Below, piece after piece: positions 16,516 to 27,346 of a DNA stretch of 45,558 nucleotides (positions are counted from its first letter, which is position 1; each line of letters starts with the position of its first letter). A model generated the notes under the pieces. That model was given only the letters and a program-made list of their open reading frames with translations, was not told where the DNA came from and ran no database searches. The stretch spans positions 1-45,558 of the forward strand of contig JAJYUB010000029.1 of the NCBI GenBank assembly GCA_021792795.1, written 5' to 3'. Both the position numbers and the translations under genes were made by a program. Source of the DNA: Acidobacteriota bacterium (GTDB taxonomy: Bacteria > Acidobacteriota > Terriglobia > Terriglobales > Acidobacteriaceae).

Positions 16516-17781
16516 ATGCCATCGATGAAAGACACTTTAGGGGTTCTTCTGGCGGGCGGGGCCGGCGAACGGCTGTATCCACTGACCCGCGATCGCGCCA
16601 AGCCGGCTGTGCCTTTCGGCGGCAACTATCGCATCATCGACATCACTCTGTCGAACTGCATCAACTCCGATCTACGCCGGATTTACATCCTGACGCAATA
16701 CAAGGCGCTTTCGCTGAATCGCCATATTCGCGAGGGCTGGGGCTCGGTGGTCGCCAACGAACTCGGCGAGTTCATTGAAATTCTTCCGCCCATGCAGCGC
16801 GTCAGCTCCAATTGGTACATGGGAACGGCGGACGCGGTGTATCAGAACATTTATTCGATCGGCAGCGAGCAGCCCAAGCGCGTGCTGATCCTCTCCGGCG
16901 ACCACATTTACAAGATGAACTACGGACGCATGCTGCAACAGCATCTGGATTCGGGGGCCGATGTCACCCTGGCCACGCTGCCCATCGATCCGTCGGAGGT
17001 GTCCCGTTTTGGGGTGGTCGAGGTCTCGCGAACGGGAGAGGTCACAGGCTTCCAGGAGAAGCCGCAGCAGACGGACCTGCGCTCGCCATTCAACCAGGAC
17101 AAGGTGGACGCGTCCATGGGCATCTACCTGTTCAACACCGACGTGCTGCTTCCATCGCTGATTCGCGACGCGGAAGATCCGGATTCGCAGCACGATTTCG
17201 GCCACAATATCCTTCCGGCGATGCTCGGCCAGTACAAGATGTACGCCTTCAATTTTGTCGACGAGAACAAGCAGGAAGCGCTGTACTGGCGCGATGTGGG
17301 GACGCTCGACGCCTACTACGACGCCAATATGGATGTTGCCTCCTTGACGCCGATCTTCAATCTTTACGACAAGAGCTGGCCCATGCGCACCCGGCCATTG
17401 CAATATCCTCCGGCAAAATTTGTGTTTGGCGAGCCCGGGCGCACTGGCATGGCCATCAACACCGTGGTTTCGGCGGGCTGCATCGTCTCCGGCGCCACCG
17501 TGCGCAATAGCGTGCTTTCGCACGATGTCCGGGTCAATTCCTACGGGGAAGTCGATTCAAGCATCCTGTTTTCCCATGTCCGGATCGGGCGGCATTGCCG
17601 GATTCGACGCGCCATCATCGATCGCGACGTTCAGATCCCTGAAGGCACCGTGATCGGCTACGACGCGAATGAAGATCGCAAAAATTACCTGGTGACGGAG
17701 ACGGGCATCACGGTGGTTAGCAGGGACTACTCCCTCTATGAAAATCCGGTGACCTCGGACCATGTTCCGCACGACATGTAG
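16516..17781 (+). CDS. glgC: Glucose-1-phosphate adenylyltransferase
   Basis: GlgC makes ADP-glucose from glucose-1-phosphate and ATP, the committed step of glycogen synthesis. The 421-residue product shows the N-terminal nucleotidyltransferase fold with LAGGAGERLYPLTRDRAKPA, FGGNYRIIDITLSNCINS and GTADAVYQN. SGDHIYKMNY carries the catalytic aspartate and VDASMGIYLF is typical. The C-terminal part is a left-handed beta-helix (SVLSHDVRVNS, VRIGRHCRIRRAIIDRDV). ATG at 16516 has AGGATAGG 8-15 bases upstream. It diverges from the ABC-F gene; no other glycogen gene is in the window. Confidence 0.96.
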   Translation: MPSMKDTLGVLLAGGAGERLYPLTRDRAKPAVPFGGNYRIIDITLSNCINSDLRRIYILTQYKALSLNRHIREGWGSVVANELGEFIEILPPMQRVSSNWYMGTADAVYQNIYSIGSEQPKRVLILSGDHIYKMNYGRMLQQHLDSGADVTLATLPIDPSEVSRFGVVEVSRTGEVTGFQEKPQQTDLRSPFNQDKVDASMGIYLFNTDVLLPSLIRDAEDPDSQHDFGHNILPAMLGQYKMYAFNFVDENKQEALYWRDVGTLDAYYDANMDVASLTPIFNLYDKSWPMRTRPLQYPPAKFVFGEPGRTGMAINTVVSAGCIVSGATVRNSVLSHDVRVNSYGEVDSSILFSHVRIGRHCRIRRAIIDRDVQIPEGTVIGYDANEDRKNYLVTETGITVVSRDYSLYENPVTSDHVPHDM

Positions 17782-17853: not shown

Positions 17854-17880
17854 GGAACTGAAAGGTGGCAGGCCGCGTAT
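17854..17880 (+). promoter_or_regulatory. Possible ECF-type promoter upstream of the sigma operon
   Basis: GGAAC, the usual -35 core of ECF sigma promoters, occurs at 17854-17858. It is followed 18 bases on by CGTAT (17876-17880). This would fit autoregulation and a leader of about 125 bases before the chosen start at 18015. It is only one match, so support is weak. Confidence 0.3.
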
Positions 17881-18014: not shown

Positions 18015-18626
18015 ATGCCCGCAAACTCCGACTCTACGGAAGAGACCAGCGCGCTCGTACGACGTTGCCTGCAAGGAGATGGCCACGCCTGGCAGCAGAT
18101 CGTTGAGTTGCAGCATCGTCGTGTCTACGGTCTGTGCTATCGTTTTACCGGGTCTGCCGGCGATGCGGAGGACCTGACCCAGGACGTATTTCTGAAGGTC
18201 TACCGCAATCTGAAAACATTTGATATTGAACGCGGCAGCTTTCCCACCTGGCTGACCACGCTGACCCGGAACCTGCTGGTCGATCATTTCCGCCGCACCC
18301 GAGTCGAACAGACAACCCATTCGCTCGACGCCGGTTGGGAGGGCCCGGAAGGCCCGTCGTCGCCGGCGGAAAAGATCCAGACGGAGCAGCCCGATCCGCT
18401 GCAAAACTGCATGGACCGCGAACTGCAGGCGCTGGTGCAGCAGGCCCTGTTGCAGGTCTCCCCGGAGTTGCGCGAGGCCGTGATCCTGCGCGATCTAAAG
18501 GACATGGACTACAAGGAAATTGCGGAAGTCCTGCGCATTCCGGAAGGTACTGTAAAGTCGCGCATCAGTCGCGGACGAATGGAACTGGCAAGGCTGTTGG
18601 AACGTACTAAAAGGCAGGTGATGTAA
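18015..18626 (+). CDS. ECF RNA polymerase sigma factor (sigma-70 family)
   Basis: From ATG 18015 the product has 203 residues, a normal ECF size. Region 2 reads RVYGLCYRFTGSAGDAEDLT, with the core-binding and -10-melting part FPTWLTTLTRNLLVDHFRR. Region 4 reads SPELREAVILRDLKDMDYKE followed by the helix-turn-helix EVLRIPEGTVKSRISRGR. The Pro/Glu-rich linker (about 95-125) is slightly long. The frame is open back to GTG 17865, but that N-terminal stretch has no family match. Its stop codon directly precedes the ATG of the anti-sigma gene, which indicates translational coupling. It likely responds to an envelope signal passed on by that neighbour. Confidence 0.92.
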   Translation: MPANSDSTEETSALVRRCLQGDGHAWQQIVELQHRRVYGLCYRFTGSAGDAEDLTQDVFLKVYRNLKTFDIERGSFPTWLTTLTRNLLVDHFRRTRVEQTTHSLDAGWEGPEGPSSPAEKIQTEQPDPLQNCMDRELQALVQQALLQVSPELREAVILRDLKDMDYKEIAEVLRIPEGTVKSRISRGRMELARLLERTKRQVM

Positions 18627-19775
18627 ATGAAGGACCACGGCCAATTTGGAGACAGGCCGGCTGGAAAGTCGGCGAACGTCCCATCGGACAAGCTTGACTG
18701 CGCCGCGGTTGAGCTGTTGTGGGTTGAGGCCGCCGAGGGCTCATTGGCCCCGACAGAGGCCGAGCAGGTCCGTGCCCATACGAGCGAATGTGCGTCCTGC
18801 CGCGAGAAAATCTCCCGGGCGCGCAAGGGTCGCGAGTGGCTGCTGGTGCTGAAAATGGAACCGCTTTCTCCTCCTTCCGATCTGGTTGCAAAAATCCTGG
18901 CCAGGACCACGGGCGCATCGGAGACGTCCCATCTTCCTCGGTGGTCGATGCCGAAGATTCCTGCGGAAATAGATTCGCGTATCGCGGACCGGTATAGCCT
19001 GCCGGGTTATTCTTTCCCGGATTCCGAAACAGCCCCCGTCCCCGGCGAGACGGTTGGCGACAACAGAACCCTCAGTCGCGACGGGATTCCGTCTACCCCA
19101 GTCTGGCAGCGCCCTTCCGTGGTGTTCCTGCGGAAAACGGTTTTTGAACCGCGCATGGCCTTGGTGGCCGCCATGGCATTTTTCTCCATTTCATTGACTC
19201 TGAACCTGGTGGGGGTCAAGTTGACCCGGTTCCGCGCCGCCGATTTGGAGCCGCAGGCAATGCGTCGGGCCGTGACCCGCCAATATGCCCAGGCCAATGC
19301 TCGGGTGGTGCATTACTATGAGAATCTTCGCATCGTGTACGAAGTCGAGTCGCGCGTCCATCAACTGCGGCAGGCTGCGGATTCTGTACAGGCCCCTGAA
19401 AAGACCGGCTATCCGCAGGGCAAGCGGGATCCAGGAGCCAGTCGCGATGGCCAGGGCCATCGAGGCGATCGGGACCATCAAAGCAGTCGTGACGGACTGC
19501 ATCGGGAACGGATGGAAGTCACTCCCGTCAAGGACCAGAATGCGCAGCAGAACCGCTCCACTCCGGTTGAACCCGCACCCATTTTCAGCGGACCGACGAT
19601 CGATGCGTCCTTCAACGCACAGCCGATTTCGCCGGGTCAGAACGTAGTTGAAACTGTGCAGCCAAGATTCGTGTCAACGGTATTCTCGGAATTTGTATCG
19701 CGGCCTGCCTCGCAGGCTTCGTCGCGTTTACTTAAAATTGCTCGTTTTTCTGTGCAAGAAAGGAACTCGGCATGA
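18627..19775 (+). CDS. Membrane anti-sigma factor with zinc-finger (zf-HC2-type) domain
   Basis: The 382-residue product has an N-terminal anti-sigma zinc-binding motif: Cys25 and His51-x3-Cys55-x2-Cys58 (AHTSECASC). A linker leads to one membrane segment (about 177-197, MALVAAMAFFSISLTLNLVG). The rest is predicted outside, with a helical part (about 210-255), an Arg/Asp/Gly-rich low-complexity stretch (about 260-295) and a Pro/Ser-rich tail. It should hold the ECF sigma factor at the membrane until a periplasmic signal arrives. The start touches the sigma stop codon, and its own stop overlaps the next start (ATGA). The large extracytoplasmic tail is unusual; its partner is unknown. Confidence 0.85.
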   Translation: MKDHGQFGDRPAGKSANVPSDKLDCAAVELLWVEAAEGSLAPTEAEQVRAHTSECASCREKISRARKGREWLLVLKMEPLSPPSDLVAKILARTTGASETSHLPRWSMPKIPAEIDSRIADRYSLPGYSFPDSETAPVPGETVGDNRTLSRDGIPSTPVWQRPSVVFLRKTVFEPRMALVAAMAFFSISLTLNLVGVKLTRFRAADLEPQAMRRAVTRQYAQANARVVHYYENLRIVYEVESRVHQLRQAADSVQAPEKTGYPQGKRDPGASRDGQGHRGDRDHQSSRDGLHRERMEVTPVKDQNAQQNRSTPVEPAPIFSGPTIDASFNAQPISPGQNVVETVQPRFVSTVFSEFVSRPASQASSRLLKIARFSVQERNSA

Positions 19776-20698
19776 ATTGTGCAAATCATCCCGATACACC
19801 GGTTGCAGCCTATTGCCAGTTCTGCGGAAAGCCGCTGTGCGCCCAATGCGTTCATAAGATCAACAACATCGTGGGCTGCGAGGCTTGCCTGGCGGCCCGG
19901 ATCGGCGCGGCCAGCGGCGGAACTTACGGCGTCAATATCAACGATGGCAAAGGCTTTCAGTACACGGCAACTGGACCGCTTCCTCCGGGAAACGTACCGC
20001 CTGCCGCGAGCTGGGGTGCGGAACCCTGGGTTGCCTTCGGCCTTGGCTGGATTCCTGGCGTAGGGGCGATGTATAACGGTCAGTTTGCCAAAGCGTTGGC
20101 CCACGTGGTGATTTTCGCGCTGCTGGTCGATTTTTCCAATTACAACGGCGTGCTGGGCGTGGTCGTCTTTGGCTGGGTCGTCTATCAGGTATTCGATGCC
20201 TATCATACCGCGATTGCGCGGCGCGACGGGCTTCCTTTGCCCAATCCGCTGGGCTTGAACGATATTGCCCAATGGTTCGGCGTGCGATCCACTCCTCCCA
20301 CGAACCCATGGGTTGGCGGGAATCCAAATGCTACAAGCGAAAACCCGGCAGGTACCGCGCCAGGAGTGCCTCCGGTGGGAAGTGCAGGGCCTGTCTCCGG
20401 CTTCGCTCCCGCAGCGGAATATGGGCCGCCATACACTCCGCCGTATGTGCCGCCGGCGCCACAACGACCAACGGATCCGTTGAATCCGTTTTGCGCGGCC
20501 GGTCAATTTGGACCCAATCGCGGAATCCACGTGGGCGCGGTGATCTTGATCGTCCTCGGCGTGGCTTTCTTATTGGGGAACCTCGGGATTCTCAGCGAGC
20601 ACTGGATCAATCACGGGTGGCCGATTCTGCTGATTGGTATCGGTGTGTGGATGGTGATTTGTCGTAGCCAAAAGCCACCTGTAGGAGGTGCAAGATGA
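19772..20698 (+). CDS. B-box zinc-finger and TM2-like/LiaI-like membrane protein
   Basis: The 308-residue product starts with a B-box-type zinc finger (Cys3, His6, then CQFCGKPLCAQC and a later CEAC). A hydrophobic TM2-like unit follows (about 85-155, FGLGWIPGVGAMYNGQFAKA), then a Pro/Gly-rich linker (about 170-240). The C-terminal pair of hydrophobic segments (GAVILIVLGVAFLLGNLGIL, ILLIGIGVWMVI) resembles LiaI/LiaF-like (DUF5668) membrane units. It overlaps the anti-sigma gene and the next gene by ATGA junctions. The function is unknown; the context suggests an envelope-stress role. Confidence 0.75.
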   Translation: MNCANHPDTPVAAYCQFCGKPLCAQCVHKINNIVGCEACLAARIGAASGGTYGVNINDGKGFQYTATGPLPPGNVPPAASWGAEPWVAFGLGWIPGVGAMYNGQFAKALAHVVIFALLVDFSNYNGVLGVVVFGWVVYQVFDAYHTAIARRDGLPLPNPLGLNDIAQWFGVRSTPPTNPWVGGNPNATSENPAGTAPGVPPVGSAGPVSGFAPAAEYGPPYTPPYVPPAPQRPTDPLNPFCAAGQFGPNRGIHVGAVILIVLGVAFLLGNLGILSEHWINHGWPILLIGIGVWMVICRSQKPPVGGAR

Positions 20699-21057
20699 AT
20701 CGCTGGTATCAAATTCGCCGCTTAAGAGGTGCCGTCACCCTGATTTTGGTCGGAGTGTTGGCCTTGCTGAACCAGTGGAACATTTTGCATTGGGATGCAA
20801 GCTGGCCTTTGTTCCTGATTGTTTTGGGTCTACTGATGCTGGTGGAGCGCGCCGCGTGGACTGCCGACGTTCGCGCCCGGCAGCAAGAGCAGGAGTATGC
20901 AGCCGGCAACCCCGCCTACCCTGCGGGCCAGCCCCTGGGTAGCGCTGCAGGGTCGGCCTCGTGGCCGCCTGCTTCCCCGCCGTCCAGTGTTGGGTCCGGT
21001 CCGTTCGTTCAGTCGCATCCGCCCACGCCGGAGGATCCCGGCAGAGAAGACCGGTAG
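20695..21057 (+). CDS. LiaI-like (DUF5668) small membrane protein
   Basis: This is a 120-residue protein with two membrane segments (GAVTLILVGVLALLNQWNIL and SWPLFLIVLGLLMLVE). They repeat the pattern of the C-terminal part of the previous protein. A Pro/Ser/Gly-rich hydrophilic tail follows. The start overlaps the stop of the previous gene (ATGA) and the next start lies 4 bases after its stop. LiaI-like units are membrane proteins associated with envelope-stress modules in other bacteria. The specific role is unknown. Confidence 0.72.
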   Translation: MNRWYQIRRLRGAVTLILVGVLALLNQWNILHWDASWPLFLIVLGLLMLVERAAWTADVRARQQEQEYAAGNPAYPAGQPLGSAAGSASWPPASPPSSVGSGPFVQSHPPTPEDPGREDR

Positions 21058-21061
21058 CGCC

Positions 21062-22534
21062 ATGGGCATGCCTCCGCAGACACCGCCTCCTTATCCGCCT
21101 TCGCGCGCACAGTGGAAAGCGCAACGGGCGCAGTGGAAGATGCAATCTAAAATGCAGCGCGCCGCATACCGCGCTTCCCTTCGGGGCACGGCGCACAGAT
21201 CGATCATTGGCCCAATATTTTTAATCGCCATTGGCGTGCTGGCGTTGCTGATGACCCTGCACAGGATCAACGTCGACTACTTCTGGCATTGGTATGGGCA
21301 TTGGTGGCCGCTGCTGCCGATCGGCGCTGGGGTCCTGTTGGCGCTGGAATCGTTGACATTGGCCAACCACTCGCGGGTAAGGCTGGGCGGAGGCGTAGTT
21401 TTCCTGGTGTTGCTACTGGCGCTTGTGGGAGTGATCGCCGCGCACAACCACGTCAATTGGCAATCTGTTGGGGACCAGTTGCAGCTTGGCGACGACGTGA
21501 ATCTCGCCGAGATGTTCGGGAACAAGCACCAGGCCAAGGAACGGATTGACCATGCCTTGCCCGCCGATGCAACCGTTGTGATCCAAAACGCGCATGGCGA
21601 TGTCATCCTGACCGCCGGCAGCGACGACCAGATGCATCTGACGGTCGATAAAACTGTGTACAGCGGTTCCGATCGCGAGGCGCAACGCGAGCTGGACGCG
21701 CTGGAACCCTTGATTACATCGAGCGGCAACGTGGTCACCGTACACATGCCGTCAAGCGACAGCAAGGTGGCCGATATGACCCTCGCGTTGCCCGCGACTG
21801 CGGCCGCGCAGGTGCGAATCGACCATGGAGATGCGACCGTCAGCGGCCGCAAAGCCGCAGTCACGATCAACTCCGGCCAGGGCGATGTGGAACTGACCAG
21901 CATCGCGGGTCCCATCCAGGTGGCGATGCACCAAGGCGATTTTACTGGGCGGGATGTGCAGGGAGATTTTGCGATCAGCGGTCGCATGAACGATGTCACG
22001 CTTTCACAAGTCACAGGGTCTTCCACCCTGACGGGCGACTTTTTCGGCGACGTGCATCTGGACCATCTGCTGGGGCCGGTTCACTTGCATTCCAGCCGCA
22101 CCGAGATTCAGGCGGCCCGGTTGGAGGGTTCGGTCACTTTGAGCGATGGCGATCTGACGATGGACAACGCCGTCGGACCCGTCCTTGTCAGCACACGCGC
22201 CATGGACATTACGATGAAGCATATCCAGGGCGAAGTTCGAGTGAAAAATTCCGATGGCAGCATCGCCGTGAACGTGGTCGATCCGGTGGCCGCCATGGAC
22301 ATCGAAAACCGCAATGGGTCGGTGGACGTGACCGTCCCGGAAGATGCGAAGTTTACTGTGCAAGGCGTCGCCGTCGATGGCGAGATCGATTCAGACTTCA
22401 AGCTGACGCAAAACACGGCGAACGACCACGCCACAGCTTTCGGTTCCGTCGGTGGGGGCGGCCTGCTGCTGCACATCGTCGCCGAAAAAGGCGACATCCA
22501 CCTGAACAAGGCAGGAGCCAGCGCCGACCAATAG
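21062..22534 (+). CDS. LiaI-like membrane unit fused to DUF4097 beta-helix domain
   Basis: The 490-residue product begins MGMPPQTPPPYPP and has a basic Gln/Lys-rich N-terminus. Two or three membrane segments follow (IIGPIFLIAIGVLALLMTLH, a WPLLPIGAGVLLALE segment, GGGVVFLVLLLALVGVIAAH). The large C-terminal domain (about 150-480) has short repeating strands such as VVIQNAHGDVILTAG, VRIDHGDATVSG, VTINSGQGDVELTS, VTLSDGDLTMDNAVG and VRVKNSDGSIAVNV, the mark of DUF4097 right-handed beta-solenoids. The domain probably lies outside the cytoplasm and may sense or bind a surface. It closes the five-gene operon. The longer open frame from 20897 overlaps the previous gene and is rejected. Confidence 0.82.
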   Translation: MGMPPQTPPPYPPSRAQWKAQRAQWKMQSKMQRAAYRASLRGTAHRSIIGPIFLIAIGVLALLMTLHRINVDYFWHWYGHWWPLLPIGAGVLLALESLTLANHSRVRLGGGVVFLVLLLALVGVIAAHNHVNWQSVGDQLQLGDDVNLAEMFGNKHQAKERIDHALPADATVVIQNAHGDVILTAGSDDQMHLTVDKTVYSGSDREAQRELDALEPLITSSGNVVTVHMPSSDSKVADMTLALPATAAAQVRIDHGDATVSGRKAAVTINSGQGDVELTSIAGPIQVAMHQGDFTGRDVQGDFAISGRMNDVTLSQVTGSSTLTGDFFGDVHLDHLLGPVHLHSSRTEIQAARLEGSVTLSDGDLTMDNAVGPVLVSTRAMDITMKHIQGEVRVKNSDGSIAVNVVDPVAAMDIENRNGSVDVTVPEDAKFTVQGVAVDGEIDSDFKLTQNTANDHATAFGSVGGGGLLLHIVAEKGDIHLNKAGASADQ

Positions 22535-22591: not shown

Positions 22592-23647
22592 TCAGTAGGT
22601 TACGCCGTTGGGGAACTGGCCTGCGGCGGCGACCCCATTGCGGGTCGTATTTTTGATGTGATACATGGCCGCGTCGGCGGCGCGGATCACGGCATGGATA
22701 TCGAGGCCATCCTCCGGGAAGCTGGAGACGCCGAAGCTGGCGAGGATTCGCAGATTGATGTCCGATTTCGGCAGAAACGTGGTGGTGCGAAGTTTTTCCA
22801 TCAGCCGGTTGGCCAGGTCCAGGGCCCGCTGTTTGGATTGATGCGGCATCAGCACCACAAATTCATCGCCGCCATAGCGGTATCCGGTTTCAATCAGGCC
22901 CAGGCTGTCGCGCACCATGTCGCCGATTTCGGCCAGCAGGCGGCTACCGTTTAAATGCCCGTAGGTGTCGTTGACCAGCTTGAAATGATCAAGATCGAAA
23001 AAGATCAAGCTCACCGGCTTGCCGCTGCGCCGGCTGCGTTCCAGAGAATGTTCGAGCCGTTCATACAGATGGCGCGCATTGAACAATCCGGTGCAATCGT
23101 CGGTAATGGTCAACTGCTGGATTTGCTCAAATGCTCGCGCGTTTTGGACGGCGATGGCGGCATAGTCGCAGAGAGCATGGAGGAAAAATATTTCATGGTT
23201 GTCCATGTTCTCCGGATGGCAATTGATCAGTTGCAGCACGCCGTAGGTTTTGTTTCGCACCCGTAGCGGGAGGCAAATGATAGATTCCACGCGACCGCTG
23301 TTCTCCGGCAGTTCGTCGGCCAGTTCCTGGTCCTCGGGAACGCTGGCCAGGATCATGGGTTCGCCGTGAAGCGCGACCCAGCCAGGGATGCCCTGCCCAA
23401 GAGGGATGCGTTTGTGGCGCAGTTTCTCCGTTCGTCCGCCGGAGATGATGCCGTAGTAGAGTTGACGGTGCTTCTCATCCACAATCAGCAGCGACCAGGC
23501 TTGCGGGCTAAAAAACCGGGTCATCTGCTGCATGATGCCGTTCAGAATGCCGGTAAGATCGACCGACGAAGTGAGGGCGCGGGCGACCTCGTGAAAGGTC
23601 TGGATCTCCAGCGCCGGCTGGCCGTCTGGGAAGCGGATCGTTTTCAT
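22592..23647 (-). CDS. GAF-GGDEF diguanylate cyclase
   Basis: The 351-residue soluble protein has an N-terminal GAF domain (about 20-170, with WSLLIVDEKHRQLYYGIISG and IPGWVALHGEPM) and a C-terminal GGDEF domain (about 180-340). The active-site motif RYGGDEFVVLMP is intact near residue 258, with FFDLDHFKLVNDTYGH upstream. It should make cyclic di-GMP from GTP. The usual RxxD inhibitory site nine residues before GGDEF is absent (GLIE instead), so feedback inhibition is not expected. It sits 165 bases downstream of moaA. The ligand of the GAF domain is unknown. Confidence 0.92.
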   Translation of the reverse strand: MKTIRFPDGQPALEIQTFHEVARALTSSVDLTGILNGIMQQMTRFFSPQAWSLLIVDEKHRQLYYGIISGGRTEKLRHKRIPLGQGIPGWVALHGEPMILASVPEDQELADELPENSGRVESIICLPLRVRNKTYGVLQLINCHPENMDNHEIFFLHALCDYAAIAVQNARAFEQIQQLTITDDCTGLFNARHLYERLEHSLERSRRSGKPVSLIFFDLDHFKLVNDTYGHLNGSRLLAEIGDMVRDSLGLIETGYRYGGDEFVVLMPHQSKQRALDLANRLMEKLRTTTFLPKSDINLRILASFGVSSFPEDGLDIHAVIRAADAAMYHIKNTTRNGVAAAGQFPNGVTY

Positions 23648-24976: not shown

Positions 24977-25729
24977 TCATTTGCCCTCTACAACAATGGT
25001 ATCTTCCCCGTGGACGATTTGCTGCCCAGGGATTTCCGCGTCCGGGCGGGTGTAACTCGCTGTAAGCAGGATACCCGCGCCAGGGCCCGGAGTTACCGGG
25101 GCTTTCATCGAGAAACTGCCTTCTGTCCCGACGTAATAATTGATATCTGGATCGGCTGCGTGCTTCATAATCCAGAAAGAAATATCGTGCAGATCCTTGG
25201 CCGTTAAGTCTGCGTGAGGTGGCATTTGCGCCTGTCCCCACGCTCCCGCCGATCCTTCACGAATATGCTGCGACAAGGTGTCGATCGTGGATGCGGTGTC
25301 AGGATAACGTTTAGCTATCACCGCAAAGGAGGGCCCCATCGCTCTGGACTTGAATTCGTGACAACCCAGACAATTCGACCTCATAATATCTGTCAAGCCG
25401 GAGGACTCCGGAGCTGGTGGAGGTGAATTGACATGCGCTCGAGACAAATCTGGAATGTACATCGTTTTCAGCAAGACTTCATTGGAAGGGATCTCTTGAT
25501 ATTTCGTGGACTTTCCACGGTCTGAGACCACGATCTCATAATTGACCAACGTATCCCACTTATAGATGGCTTTGTCTTTTGGAACGACGATTTTTGCCAC
25601 AGGCAATGCAGCGTCGCCCTCGGTGGTCGCTTGTGCGGATGTATTTTGGACCTTGAAGAAAGACCAAGCGACAAATGCGCCGATTGCGATCCAGCAGGAA
25701 ATGACCATAAAGCGTTTTATTCTGGACAT
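24977..25729 (-). CDS. Exported or membrane-anchored cytochrome c
   Basis: The 250-residue protein has an N-terminal membrane segment (MVISCWIAIGAFVAWSFF). A beta-type domain (about 40-95, AKIVVPKDKAIYKWDTLVNY) is followed by a class I cytochrome c domain. The heme site is CLGCH (Cys120, Cys123, His124), and QMPPHADLT holds the likely axial methionine. A further beta-rich segment follows (SFSMKAPVTPGPGAGILLTA). It starts two bases after the stop of the FAD oxidoreductase gene, so the pair is translationally coupled and the cytochrome may accept its electrons. Base composition is lower in G+C than neighbours. The donor and final acceptor are inferred. Confidence 0.85.
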   Translation of the reverse strand: MSRIKRFMVISCWIAIGAFVAWSFFKVQNTSAQATTEGDAALPVAKIVVPKDKAIYKWDTLVNYEIVVSDRGKSTKYQEIPSNEVLLKTMYIPDLSRAHVNSPPPAPESSGLTDIMRSNCLGCHEFKSRAMGPSFAVIAKRYPDTASTIDTLSQHIREGSAGAWGQAQMPPHADLTAKDLHDISFWIMKHAADPDINYYVGTEGSFSMKAPVTPGPGAGILLTASYTRPDAEIPGQQIVHGEDTIVVEGK

Positions 25730-25731
25730 CG

Positions 25732-27207
25732 CTATGCCTTGGCGATCTCGCGGGCTACCCGTTGGGCCGACCGTATACAGGATTCCATTCCGCGGCTAAG
25801 AGCATCCGCGTAGGTTCCGGCGAAATATATTCTTCCTTCCGGCTTCAGTATTTCCGGCCAGAATCTATGCATTTGCCCGATCGGGAAAGGCTCCATTTCA
25901 CAGTTCGGCGCGTGCCGATTCTGCGTCCAATCCTTGGTCAATGCCTGAACAATTGTGTCACGCTTACCCGGATACACCGTACGAAAGGCGGCCAGAACGC
26001 GTTGTGGAGTAAGGCCGCCGGGTCCATAAGCTTTTAGAATCGCCCGCGTAGTGTCCACCTCATTCGGTACCTCCCAGATGGATGAAATATCGGGGTGATC
26101 GAATTCCATATTCAAGGTTTTGAAGCCGTCGTCCAGCCAGAATTTGGAGCTGGCCTCAAATATGTAAAAAGGATGCGAAGTATAGGTCAGGTTATCGACA
26201 ACATATTGTTTTTCCGGAGAGAGGTCGGGAGAAATAGGAATATTCCTGAAGATTGTCAATGTAATGCAGTTGACAAAATAGTCCGCTTGCATCGATTTTT
26301 CCCGATCATAACCGTATTCGCGATACCTGACCGTGACGCCGTTCTCATCGTGCGTAATTCCGGTAATCGGATGAGCCAATTTGACTCGGGAGCCCAGCCG
26401 TTTGGCAAAAGCGATGGGGAGCTGTTCATTGCCCCCTTTGAGACGAAAGGTCTCACCTTCTGAGAGCGGGATGCCCCTCGACTTCATCGCGGCCAATCGC
26501 CATAGATAGTAAAGTGCGCTGGTATCTTGCCCTCTGAGATAGTCAAGCGCTCTTGGCGAGGCCCCTTGTTGCTTGTACAGATCTGCAACGGGGATGGTAT
26601 CCAGGTGATCATAGCCGATGCCGAAAGGCCGATAGGGATCGCGAAATTTCTCCACGTAGTGACCGAGGTAAAATCCGGTGAGTTCGTACCACGGATGCTT
26701 CGAGAGAAATTCGGTCTCTCGCTGGTTGAATCCAAGGCTTCTCAGTACCTGTGGGTTGGCCAGCATTTCCTCGGTATAGAACTTACCGCCCATCATCGTG
26801 AGCATGCCGTTGTTGCGTGGCAGAGGAGAGCCTTCCGCGTTAGGATAGGGCAGCACAGGGAGATTGAACTCGCGCGTGTATTCAAAAAAACGCTCATAAC
26901 CGGGCTTGGTAATATGGTCGGCCCCGAAATCTGCGTACAATCCGTCAGATAATCCATCCCGCCCAGTGAACACGTGTCCACTGTAGCGTCCGGCCGCTTC
27001 CAACACCGTGACATCGCAGCCTGCCCTCATCAGTTCGCAGGCACAACACAGGCCTGTAATCCCCGCACCGCCGATAATGACTTTTTTGGATGCCGAGCGG
27101 GACGCACTTTCGACTTTCGATGCGGCAGTGGCTGCCAAGATGCCGCGGTCTATCATCGAAGCTCCAGCGCCCACTAGAAAATTTTTTAAGAATGTTCTGC
27201 GAATCAT
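25732..27207 (-). CDS. Tat-exported FAD-dependent amine oxidase-like protein
   Basis: The 491-residue product starts MIRRTFLKNFLVGAGASMID, a twin-arginine (RRTFLK) signal. It has a Rossmann dinucleotide motif (IIGGAGITGLCCACELMRAG, about 47-66) and an FAD-binding end (GRIYFAGTYADALSRGMESC). Long regions resemble flavin monoamine oxidase/protoporphyrinogen oxidase-like enzymes (PNAEGSPLPRNNGM, FYTEEMLANPQVLRSLG). Substrate is unknown. ATG 27207 is chosen over 27273 because AGAGG precedes it and the Tat motif starts there. It is coupled to the cytochrome c gene. Whether it is an oxidase or a dehydrogenase cannot be told from sequence. Confidence 0.83.
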   Translation of the reverse strand: MIRRTFLKNFLVGAGASMIDRGILAATAASKVESASRSASKKVIIGGAGITGLCCACELMRAGCDVTVLEAAGRYSGHVFTGRDGLSDGLYADFGADHITKPGYERFFEYTREFNLPVLPYPNAEGSPLPRNNGMLTMMGGKFYTEEMLANPQVLRSLGFNQRETEFLSKHPWYELTGFYLGHYVEKFRDPYRPFGIGYDHLDTIPVADLYKQQGASPRALDYLRGQDTSALYYLWRLAAMKSRGIPLSEGETFRLKGGNEQLPIAFAKRLGSRVKLAHPITGITHDENGVTVRYREYGYDREKSMQADYFVNCITLTIFRNIPISPDLSPEKQYVVDNLTYTSHPFYIFEASSKFWLDDGFKTLNMEFDHPDISSIWEVPNEVDTTRAILKAYGPGGLTPQRVLAAFRTVYPGKRDTIVQALTKDWTQNRHAPNCEMEPFPIGQMHRFWPEILKPEGRIYFAGTYADALSRGMESCIRSAQRVAREIAKA

Positions 27208-27346
27208 TGGAGCACCTCTTGCGGAAACCGGGGCCGTGGCATTAGGCGGCCTCGTAATTGGAACTGTCATCACGCGCCGGCGTCATACCGTTGATGATCT
27301 GACCGGGTCTATCGGTTTCCATCTACGGACACTGGTTTCCTTGGGT

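Follow-up and report, generated by a model that had tools for sequence, protein, structure and literature searches.

A sigma factor operon of Acidobacteriota with B-box, LiaI-type and toastrack membrane proteins: a probable envelope-stress module

Is an extracytoplasmic function (ECF) sigma factor gene that is followed by an anti-sigma factor gene and three genes for LiaI-type membrane proteins part of one envelope-stress module, and what would control its anti-sigma factor? The question is raised by a 45,558-nucleotide stretch of DNA (the window) from an Acidobacteriota bacterium of the family Acidobacteriaceae (assembly GCA_021792795.1, contig JAJYUB010000029.1), which is one contig of a 4.04 Mb genome that is 98.2% complete. 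A preliminary description of the sequence had reported five open reading frames in near-continuous translation, and both their coordinates and their junctions (in order: touching, ATGA, ATGA and a 4-base gap) stand. We refer to genes 1 to 5 of the operon as SIG, ASF, BBX, LIA and TOAST. Comparison with related genomes suggests that the operon is probably a sigma-W/RsiW-like envelope-stress module of Acidobacteriota, in which the SIG–ASF pair would be gated by BBX, LIA and TOAST, with two promoters, P1 and P2, and a regulon free of PspA. It looks like an alarm circuit for envelope damage that switches on membrane-protecting genes, and appears to fill the role of better-known stress systems using different sensor parts.

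A conserved core and two putative promoters

The preliminary description had set a search for the same five-gene order in related genomes as a check, and that order was found. At the level of the class, 51 loci were compared, picked for a match to BBX and also used to build the search profiles; order was scored on one strand by midpoint rank within 6.5 kb, with intervening genes possible. All five genes occur in order in 37 of the 51 loci and all except a separate LIA in 11 more, while one locus has SIG-ASF-BBX alone at a contig end and two are cut on the 5′ side. TOAST lies 1.4-2.2 kb from BBX in a few of these loci. The triad SIG-ASF-BBX is in order in 49/51 loci, the other two being cut by contig ends. 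It is also in order in 77/80 loci of a named set, which comprises the best 80 of 566 matches, all with acidobacterial titles, and overlaps the class-level set, with some genomes in common; the remaining three are cut on the 5′ side. Among 20 high-scoring full-length or near-full-length matches from other classes of Acidobacteriota, a non-random draw, the triad is present in 18 and a TOAST homologue in 11, and in seven loci with only the triad the genes 3′ of BBX appear unrelated by eye. Because the triad persists in these distant loci while the rest differs, sigma factor, anti-sigma factor and BBX form the core. Judged by gene order, the conserved module is real, its core reaches beyond the class, and the B-box protein BBX is the core third partner of the sigma pair. 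BBX was found in 52/61 genomes of the genus, family, order and class (own genome included). Among 43 good genomes, BBX was found in 39 and PspC in 36, which leaves too few absences for a co-occurrence test. Five loci of other classes (L380-L384) carry two consecutive TOAST-type matches after BBX.

The motif GGAAC-N17-CGT stands 5′ of SIG in 27 of 50 loci (the window and 49 relatives) and at other spacings from 12 to 21 in none, while across 300 Markov-resampled sets the mean was 0.18 and the highest count 4. In the other 23 loci a one-base variant of P1 is present in 22, with none in L077. Where enough upstream sequence was available, the relaxed motif NGAAC-N17-CGTW was found 5′ of SIG in 47/49 close, 64/72 named and 18/19 distant loci, and at other spacings from 10 to 24 in 0-3. 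This conservation points to an autoregulated ECF promoter carried by SIG.

A second copy of the motif, P2, ends 20 nt before the ASF start codon, within the coding sequence of SIG, and is conserved at the level of codons. The counts come from 119 unique SIG genes of 127 loci (window, close and named), which are related sequences and non-independent. Where residue 197 is arginine, its codon is CGT in 90/95 cases, compared with 10.8% CGT among the arginine codons of the same genes and with 12/119 at Arg188 and 8/116 at Arg193 nearby. The codon of Glu190 is GAA in 100/117 cases against a background of 42.5%, and residues 196 and 198, which flank Arg197, are variable. The relaxed motif with spacing 17 is present at P2 in 89/119 genes, whereas spacings of 12-16 and 18-22 give 0-1; by locus, P2 occurs in 32/49 close and 64/77 named loci. 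P2 looks like DNA-level selection within a coding region and is best read as a putative internal promoter for ASF and the membrane protein genes.

Domains and predicted membrane topology of the encoded proteins

SIG contains sigma regions 2 and 4, its nearest solved structure is SigW, and in NCBIfam the SigE and SigW models score highest, both below their own cut-offs. ASF has a zf-HC2 domain above the Pfam cut-off, one hydrophobic segment and RsiW as its best profile match, as expected of a single-pass, zinc-type anti-sigma factor; H51, C55 and C58 are invariant and C25 is nearly so. The structure model of ASF (mean predicted local distance difference test score, pLDDT, 64.5) has confident zinc-type helices at residues 25-94, the membrane helix, and a helix at residues 209-252, with the rest of the tail mostly low in confidence and variable in sequence. 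The long outside tail that had been described for this protein is, as a whole, limited to near relatives, and class-wide conservation covers some 55 residues that follow the membrane helix; ASF lengths range from 146 to 391 aa in a set of 48 rows, the shortest of which may be cut. Both flanks of the membrane helix are equally basic (net positive in 44/47 on each side). The charge rule therefore does not orient ASF, and its orientation follows from the sigma-binding domain being inside. Residues 198-225 (19218-19301), outside the membrane helix, are strongly basic, against the positive-inside rule (44/47).

Of the domains named in the preliminary description, the B-box, LiaI and DUF4097/toastrack assignments were borne out and TM2 was not. 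Pfam places LiaI_TM1 in BBX, LIA and TOAST and DUF4097 in TOAST. The B-box of the window's BBX scores 23.0 bits, just below the Pfam cut-off of 24.1, zf-B_box is matched at E≤0.1 in 48 of the 50 aligned orthologues, and the zinc ligands C3, H6, C15, C18, C23, C36 and C39 are conserved, as expected of a B-box. In searches of PDB sequences, the BBX profile matched LIM domains best (0.007), with a TRIM3 chain next (0.049); a Foldseek search with the BBX model returned weak matches, mostly LIM and none at E≤0.001. The model has a mean pLDDT of 70, with the B-box at about 95 and helices at residues 105-122, 128-151, 254-270 and 276-299. TM2 (PF05154) was rejected, with no match at E≤1 in the window protein and one in 50 members (E=0.057); the two-helix segment (..IPGVGAxYNGQ..) is at best DUF5683-like (7/50 members, best E=0.014). 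A B-box zinc finger in such a gene set had been considered unusual, which does not apply to this phylum: matches to the BBX profile, weak and partial ones included, occur in 321/396 sampled genomes, and section 27 of the 2024 PSP survey had previously listed B-box, LiaI-LiaF-TM and a sigma gene in the surroundings of toastrack genes (PMC11237479).

TOAST has three hydrophobic segments. Among 48 aligned sequences, its N-terminus carries a net positive charge in 44/48, the loop between segments 2 and 3 is net positive in 41/48, and the stretch after segment 3 is net negative in 39/48. This pattern therefore places the toastrack domain, as a prediction, outside the cytoplasmic membrane, which bears on a disagreement between two papers as far as their relevant parts show: it agrees with the description of the DUF4097 domain of LiaG as extracellular (PMC9239133) and goes against that of the toastrack domain as intracellular (PMC11237479, section 27). 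The features of the operon are collected in Table 1. On its 5′ side, on the same strand, a gene for a GlgC-like sugar-nucleotide transferase (NTP_transferase and GlmU-like hexapeptide domains, 16516-17781) ends 72 nt before P1. A gene for a GAF-GGDEF protein (22592-23647, minus strand) is convergent with the operon, with 57 nt from stop to stop between it and TOAST. Further on, two adjacent minus-strand genes (24977-25729 and 25732-27273) appear by eye to encode a c-type cytochrome (CLGCHEF) and an FAD-dependent amine oxidase.

Table 1 Operon genes, predicted promoters and protein segments, in positions of the window.
Feature	Position	Strand	Basis or detail
SIG: ECF sigma factor, SigW/SigE-like, 203 aa	18015..18626	+	Pfam Sigma70_r2 and r4_2; best solved match SigW 5wuq_A, E 1.4e-29
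ASF: membrane anti-sigma factor, zf-HC2 (ZAS) domain and one membrane helix, 382 aa	18627..19775	+	Pfam zf-HC2; profile against RsiW, E 3.3e-8; structure model
BBX: B-box zinc finger, two-helix IPGVGA domain, LiaI pair, 308 aa	19772..20698	+	Pfam, alignment, structure model
LIA: small LiaI-type membrane protein, 120 aa	20695..21057	+	PF18917, E 1.4e-8
TOAST: LiaI pair, third membrane helix, DUF4097/toastrack, 490 aa	21062..22534	+	Pfam; topology from alignment
P1: putative ECF-type promoter GGAAC-N17-CGTA	17854..17879	+	first base 161 nt 5′ of SIG start codon
P2: putative second GGAAC-N17-CGTA, in SIG 3′ end, facing ASF	18581..18606	+	codon-level conservation
ASF membrane helix, residues 175-195	19149..19211	+	hydrophobicity, structure model
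ASF long outside helix, residues 209-252, conserved YYENLRxVYExESR	19251..19382	+	alignment, structure model
BBX B-box-type zinc finger, residues 1-42	19772..19897	+	pLDDT about 95; zf-B_box in 48/50 members
BBX conserved membrane domain, residues 82-151, no Pfam TM2 match	20015..20224	+	alignment, structure model
BBX LiaI-type helix pair, residues 254-299	20531..20668	+	PF18917, E 4.3e-9; helices in model
TOAST three membrane helices, residues 48-126	21203..21439	+	mean hydrophobicity in an alignment of 48 sequences
TOAST toastrack domain, residues 173-481, predicted outside cytoplasmic membrane	21578..22504	+	Pfam; charge distribution

A predicted regulon without PspA

The motif also precedes a gene for a zinc-ribbon PspC protein elsewhere in the genome. 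Among the best 30 such loci, one from each of 30 genomes out of the 50 that have a match, with the genus contributing 10, it lies within 300 bp 5′ of the gene in 27 loci in its strict form and in 28 in its relaxed form, with 0-2 at other spacings; about 0.05 of 30 would be expected by chance from the motif rate in the own genome. The motif was found 5′ of 0/19 PspA genes, the start codon being doubtful in at least three, and of 0/12 other sigma genes of the own genome within 700 nt of region 2.

Motif matches at matching places were then compared between the own genome and a genome of the same genus (G004). From 38 and 37 matches, respectively, eight pairs resulted, two of them in the operon; the reversed pattern gave two pairs, both coding, from 27 and 29 matches. 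Outside the operon, the genes preceded by the motif in both genomes encode the zinc-ribbon PspC, a zinc-ribbon-like membrane protein (its zinc-ribbon scores are below the Pfam cut-offs and its membrane nature was judged by eye), a secreted toastrack protein, a TolC-like protein (OEP, partial match), a small membrane protein and a 438-aa protein. In a third genome, from another genus and in one contig (G026), zinc-ribbon PspC, the zinc-ribbon membrane protein and the TolC-like gene are again motif-linked. The motif in this genome also lies 5′ of a MacB-like gene (66% identical to that of the own genome) and of a MacA/HlyD-like gene (64% identical to that of G004), so that MacB is motif-linked in the own genome and G026, and MacA in G004 and G026; it further precedes, in G026, a permease pair and one unassigned pair that are shared with G004. 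The link to envelope stress, which the preliminary description had drawn from the LiaI-like and DUF4097 domains, gains support from the predicted PspC, toastrack and MacA/MacB/TolC-like targets.

The 438-440 aa protein is conserved (L108 and L135), with no Pfam match at E≤0.01; its promoter-like motif ends 12 nt before the start and may be coding. The small hydrophobic membrane protein (MKFLLWCVLL...; L111 and L118) carries the motif at corresponding positions in two species. In G026 the motif also stands 5′ of a gene for a TM2 and zinc-ribbon protein (L440).

YknX and YknZ are MacA/MacB-like. In Bacillus subtilis, sigma-W controls yvlA-D, pspA-ydjGHI and yknW-Z (PMC3498285), and YvlB belongs to the DUF4097 proteins and YvlC to the PspC proteins (PMC9239133). 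The acidobacterial list of predicted targets echoes that of sigma-W, minus PspA. PspA/LiaH (PF04012) was not found in the own genome or in nine relatives from the genus, and a match is present in 19 of the 61 genomes, above the cut-off in 18. PspA was therefore rejected as effector or target for this genus, since PF04012 was not found in it and the motif precedes none of the 19 PspA genes.

Proposed mechanism, alternatives and known systems

Taken together, the wiring of the module (gene set, core triad, P1, the P2 codons, the pspC motif, and no PspA or PrsW found) is well supported at the level of sequence. We infer that SIG reads these promoters, that envelope damage is the trigger and that BBX, LIA and TOAST control ASF. 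In this mechanism the zinc-type ASF would hold SIG at the membrane, and BBX (with its cytoplasmic B-box and a membrane part that includes the LiaI pair), LIA and TOAST would be associated with ASF and gate it. This assembly would be disturbed when the membrane or envelope is damaged, freeing SIG, which would transcribe its own operon from P1 and ASF-BBX-LIA-TOAST again from P2, providing built-in negative feedback. Free SIG would also turn on a PspA-free defence set comprising the zinc-ribbon PspC, the secreted toastrack protein, the zinc-ribbon membrane protein and the MacA/MacB/TolC-like export genes.

In B. subtilis, PrsW is the site-1 protease that starts the degradation of RsiW and thus controls the anti-sigma factor. 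PrsW (PF13367) was not found in 57/61 genomes, own included, and was matched in 4/61, so the PrsW route was rejected for the own genome, subject to its 98.2% completeness. The signal therefore probably reaches ASF otherwise, with BBX, LIA and TOAST as the obvious candidates. The earlier proposal that the three LiaI-type proteins form one complex that controls ASF fits the ATGA overlap of ASF and BBX and the absence of PrsW. A bolder version, which we advance only tentatively, is that BBX is a new third component of ECF systems, a zinc-finger LiaI-type membrane protein that gates ASF instead of a site-1 protease like PrsW, at the root of a phylum-wide response that is PspA-free in this lineage and has feedback through P2.

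Several observations weigh against the gated module. The contact of BBX, LIA and TOAST with ASF is a matter of inference. TOAST was found in 11/20 distant loci and a separate LIA in 0/20, P2 is nearly absent outside the class (1/18 distant loci), and BBX was not found in 9 of the 61 relatives, including four genomes that are at least 91% complete (G002, G021, G056 and G057). The strict GGAAC/CGTA form lies 5′ of SIG in only 16/49 close, 48/72 named and 4/19 distant loci. Genome-wide, the strict motif is barely enriched over the reversed pattern (38 versus 27 matches in the own genome, 37 versus 29 in G004 and 29 versus 22 in G026); most single matches are therefore chance, and motif counting was rejected as evidence. 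Eight pairs between the own genome and G004 compare with two in the control, and a coding test put six of the eight inside an open frame; P1 itself is among the six, and these labels are crude, with frames not trimmed to gene starts and antisense frames counted, so that position relative to the gene start was preferred. The three-genome comparison has no reversed-pattern control, and permeases and HlyD proteins are large families. The motif at the secreted toastrack gene is mostly confined to the genus (8/10 there, 2/20 elsewhere). In the sister family, finally, SIG promoters end in CGTT and PspC promoters in CGTA, and the sigma and PspC promoters therefore do not strictly co-vary.

The alternative that best withstands the evidence, although we consider it rather unlikely, is that BBX, LIA and TOAST are outputs, membrane stabilisers made together with the sigma pair, and that ASF alone senses through its conserved outside helix. 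ASF does have such a helix of its own, the other predicted targets resemble effectors, TOAST was not found in 9/20 distant loci, and the relevant part of PMC9239133 assigns LiaI, LiaG and YvlB of B. subtilis to a membrane-protection network. However, BBX follows the sigma pair in 18/20 distant loci, seven of them without LIA or TOAST after it, and ASF and BBX overlap by ATGA in 39/50 close and 52/78 named loci (1/18 distant), as would fit a regulatory partner better than one of many targets. Much less probable is that a different sigma factor of similar specificity reads the motif 5′ of pspC and the export genes, with the regulon of SIG limited to its own operon. The GGAAC −35 box is common among ECF factors, and the −10 ends of sigma and pspC promoters differ in the sister family as described above. 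Against this, SIG is the only one of 13 sigma-70 region-2 genes in this genome with the motif within 700 nt 5′ of region 2 (a search that may miss promoters of genes with a long N-terminus), spacing 17 is found in both the sigma and pspC sets, and the PspC and toastrack domains match the theme of the operon itself. That the gene order reflects shared ancestry only, with an ordinary ECF pair beside unrelated membrane genes and no joint function, is very improbable: the sampled genomes do share ancestry and the sets overlap, but in other classes the triad and its promoter are kept even though the remainder of the locus is different, and within the class the ATGA overlaps are found repeatedly.

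The gated module that we favour resembles B. subtilis sigma-W/RsiW in the nearest solved structures of SIG and ASF (Table 1), in its predicted autoregulation and in PspC and toastrack genes among the targets. It differs in that PrsW was not found in the own genome, in that PspA was not found here while pspA is in the B. subtilis regulon (PMC3498285), in the B-box/LiaI/toastrack partners within the operon, and in the putative internal second promoter present in 89/119 class-level SIG genes. With the Psp system it shares the motif-preceded zinc-ribbon PspC gene, found elsewhere in the own genome, but no PspA/LiaH effector was found there. The Bacillus Lia system (LiaIH-GFSR) likewise combines a regulator with neighbouring LiaI-LiaF membrane domains and a DUF4097/toastrack protein; in contrast, Pfam finds no LiaRS-type two-component pair among the five operon genes and four flanking genes, LiaH/PspA was not found in the own genome, and the output would run through an ECF sigma factor.

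The toastrack neighbourhoods of the 2024 PSP survey contain the same elements (LiaI-LiaF-TM, B-box, PspC and an operonic sigma factor), while its section 27 describes DUF2089-type four-gene contexts around toastrack (PMC11237479). The terms 'acidobact' and 'anti-sigma' have no match in its main text, and no promoter, PspC target or acidobacterial sigma-anti-sigma-BBX core was found in the part of the text at hand; Figure 5 and Table S4 of that work may include the operon. A study of Psp networks that covers Acidobacteriota surveyed PspC and PspA in the same phylum and is centred on PspA with band-7 partners, and 'sigma factor' has no match in the part of its text at hand (PMC9239133). The corresponding parts of PMC8999054 and PMC7406223 contain nothing on the operon, and no description of it, its promoters or the PspC target in Acidobacteriota was found among the open-licence PMC papers listed. 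In Granulicella WH15 at high sugar, the transcript of a gene annotated as sigma-W is up, as are the MacA, MacB and OprM proteins in the same comparison (PMC7074687). These data offer weak support, as sigma-W is assigned by annotation only, and two points count against using them: 121 proteins were up two-fold and 129 newly seen (250 in all), and the term PspC is absent from the paper's text as available (PMC7074687).

The operon would then be an ECF envelope-stress system in a new form, with its regulatory wiring read from sequence and its sensing proposed. It connects an ECF sigma factor, in the absence of PspA, with PspC and toastrack proteins, and it may be a case of an anti-sigma factor controlled by LiaI/B-box membrane proteins. 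For the Acidobacteriota, which are abundant in soil and whose physiology is poorly known, it offers a candidate regulator of envelope stress whose predicted promoters and targets are named.

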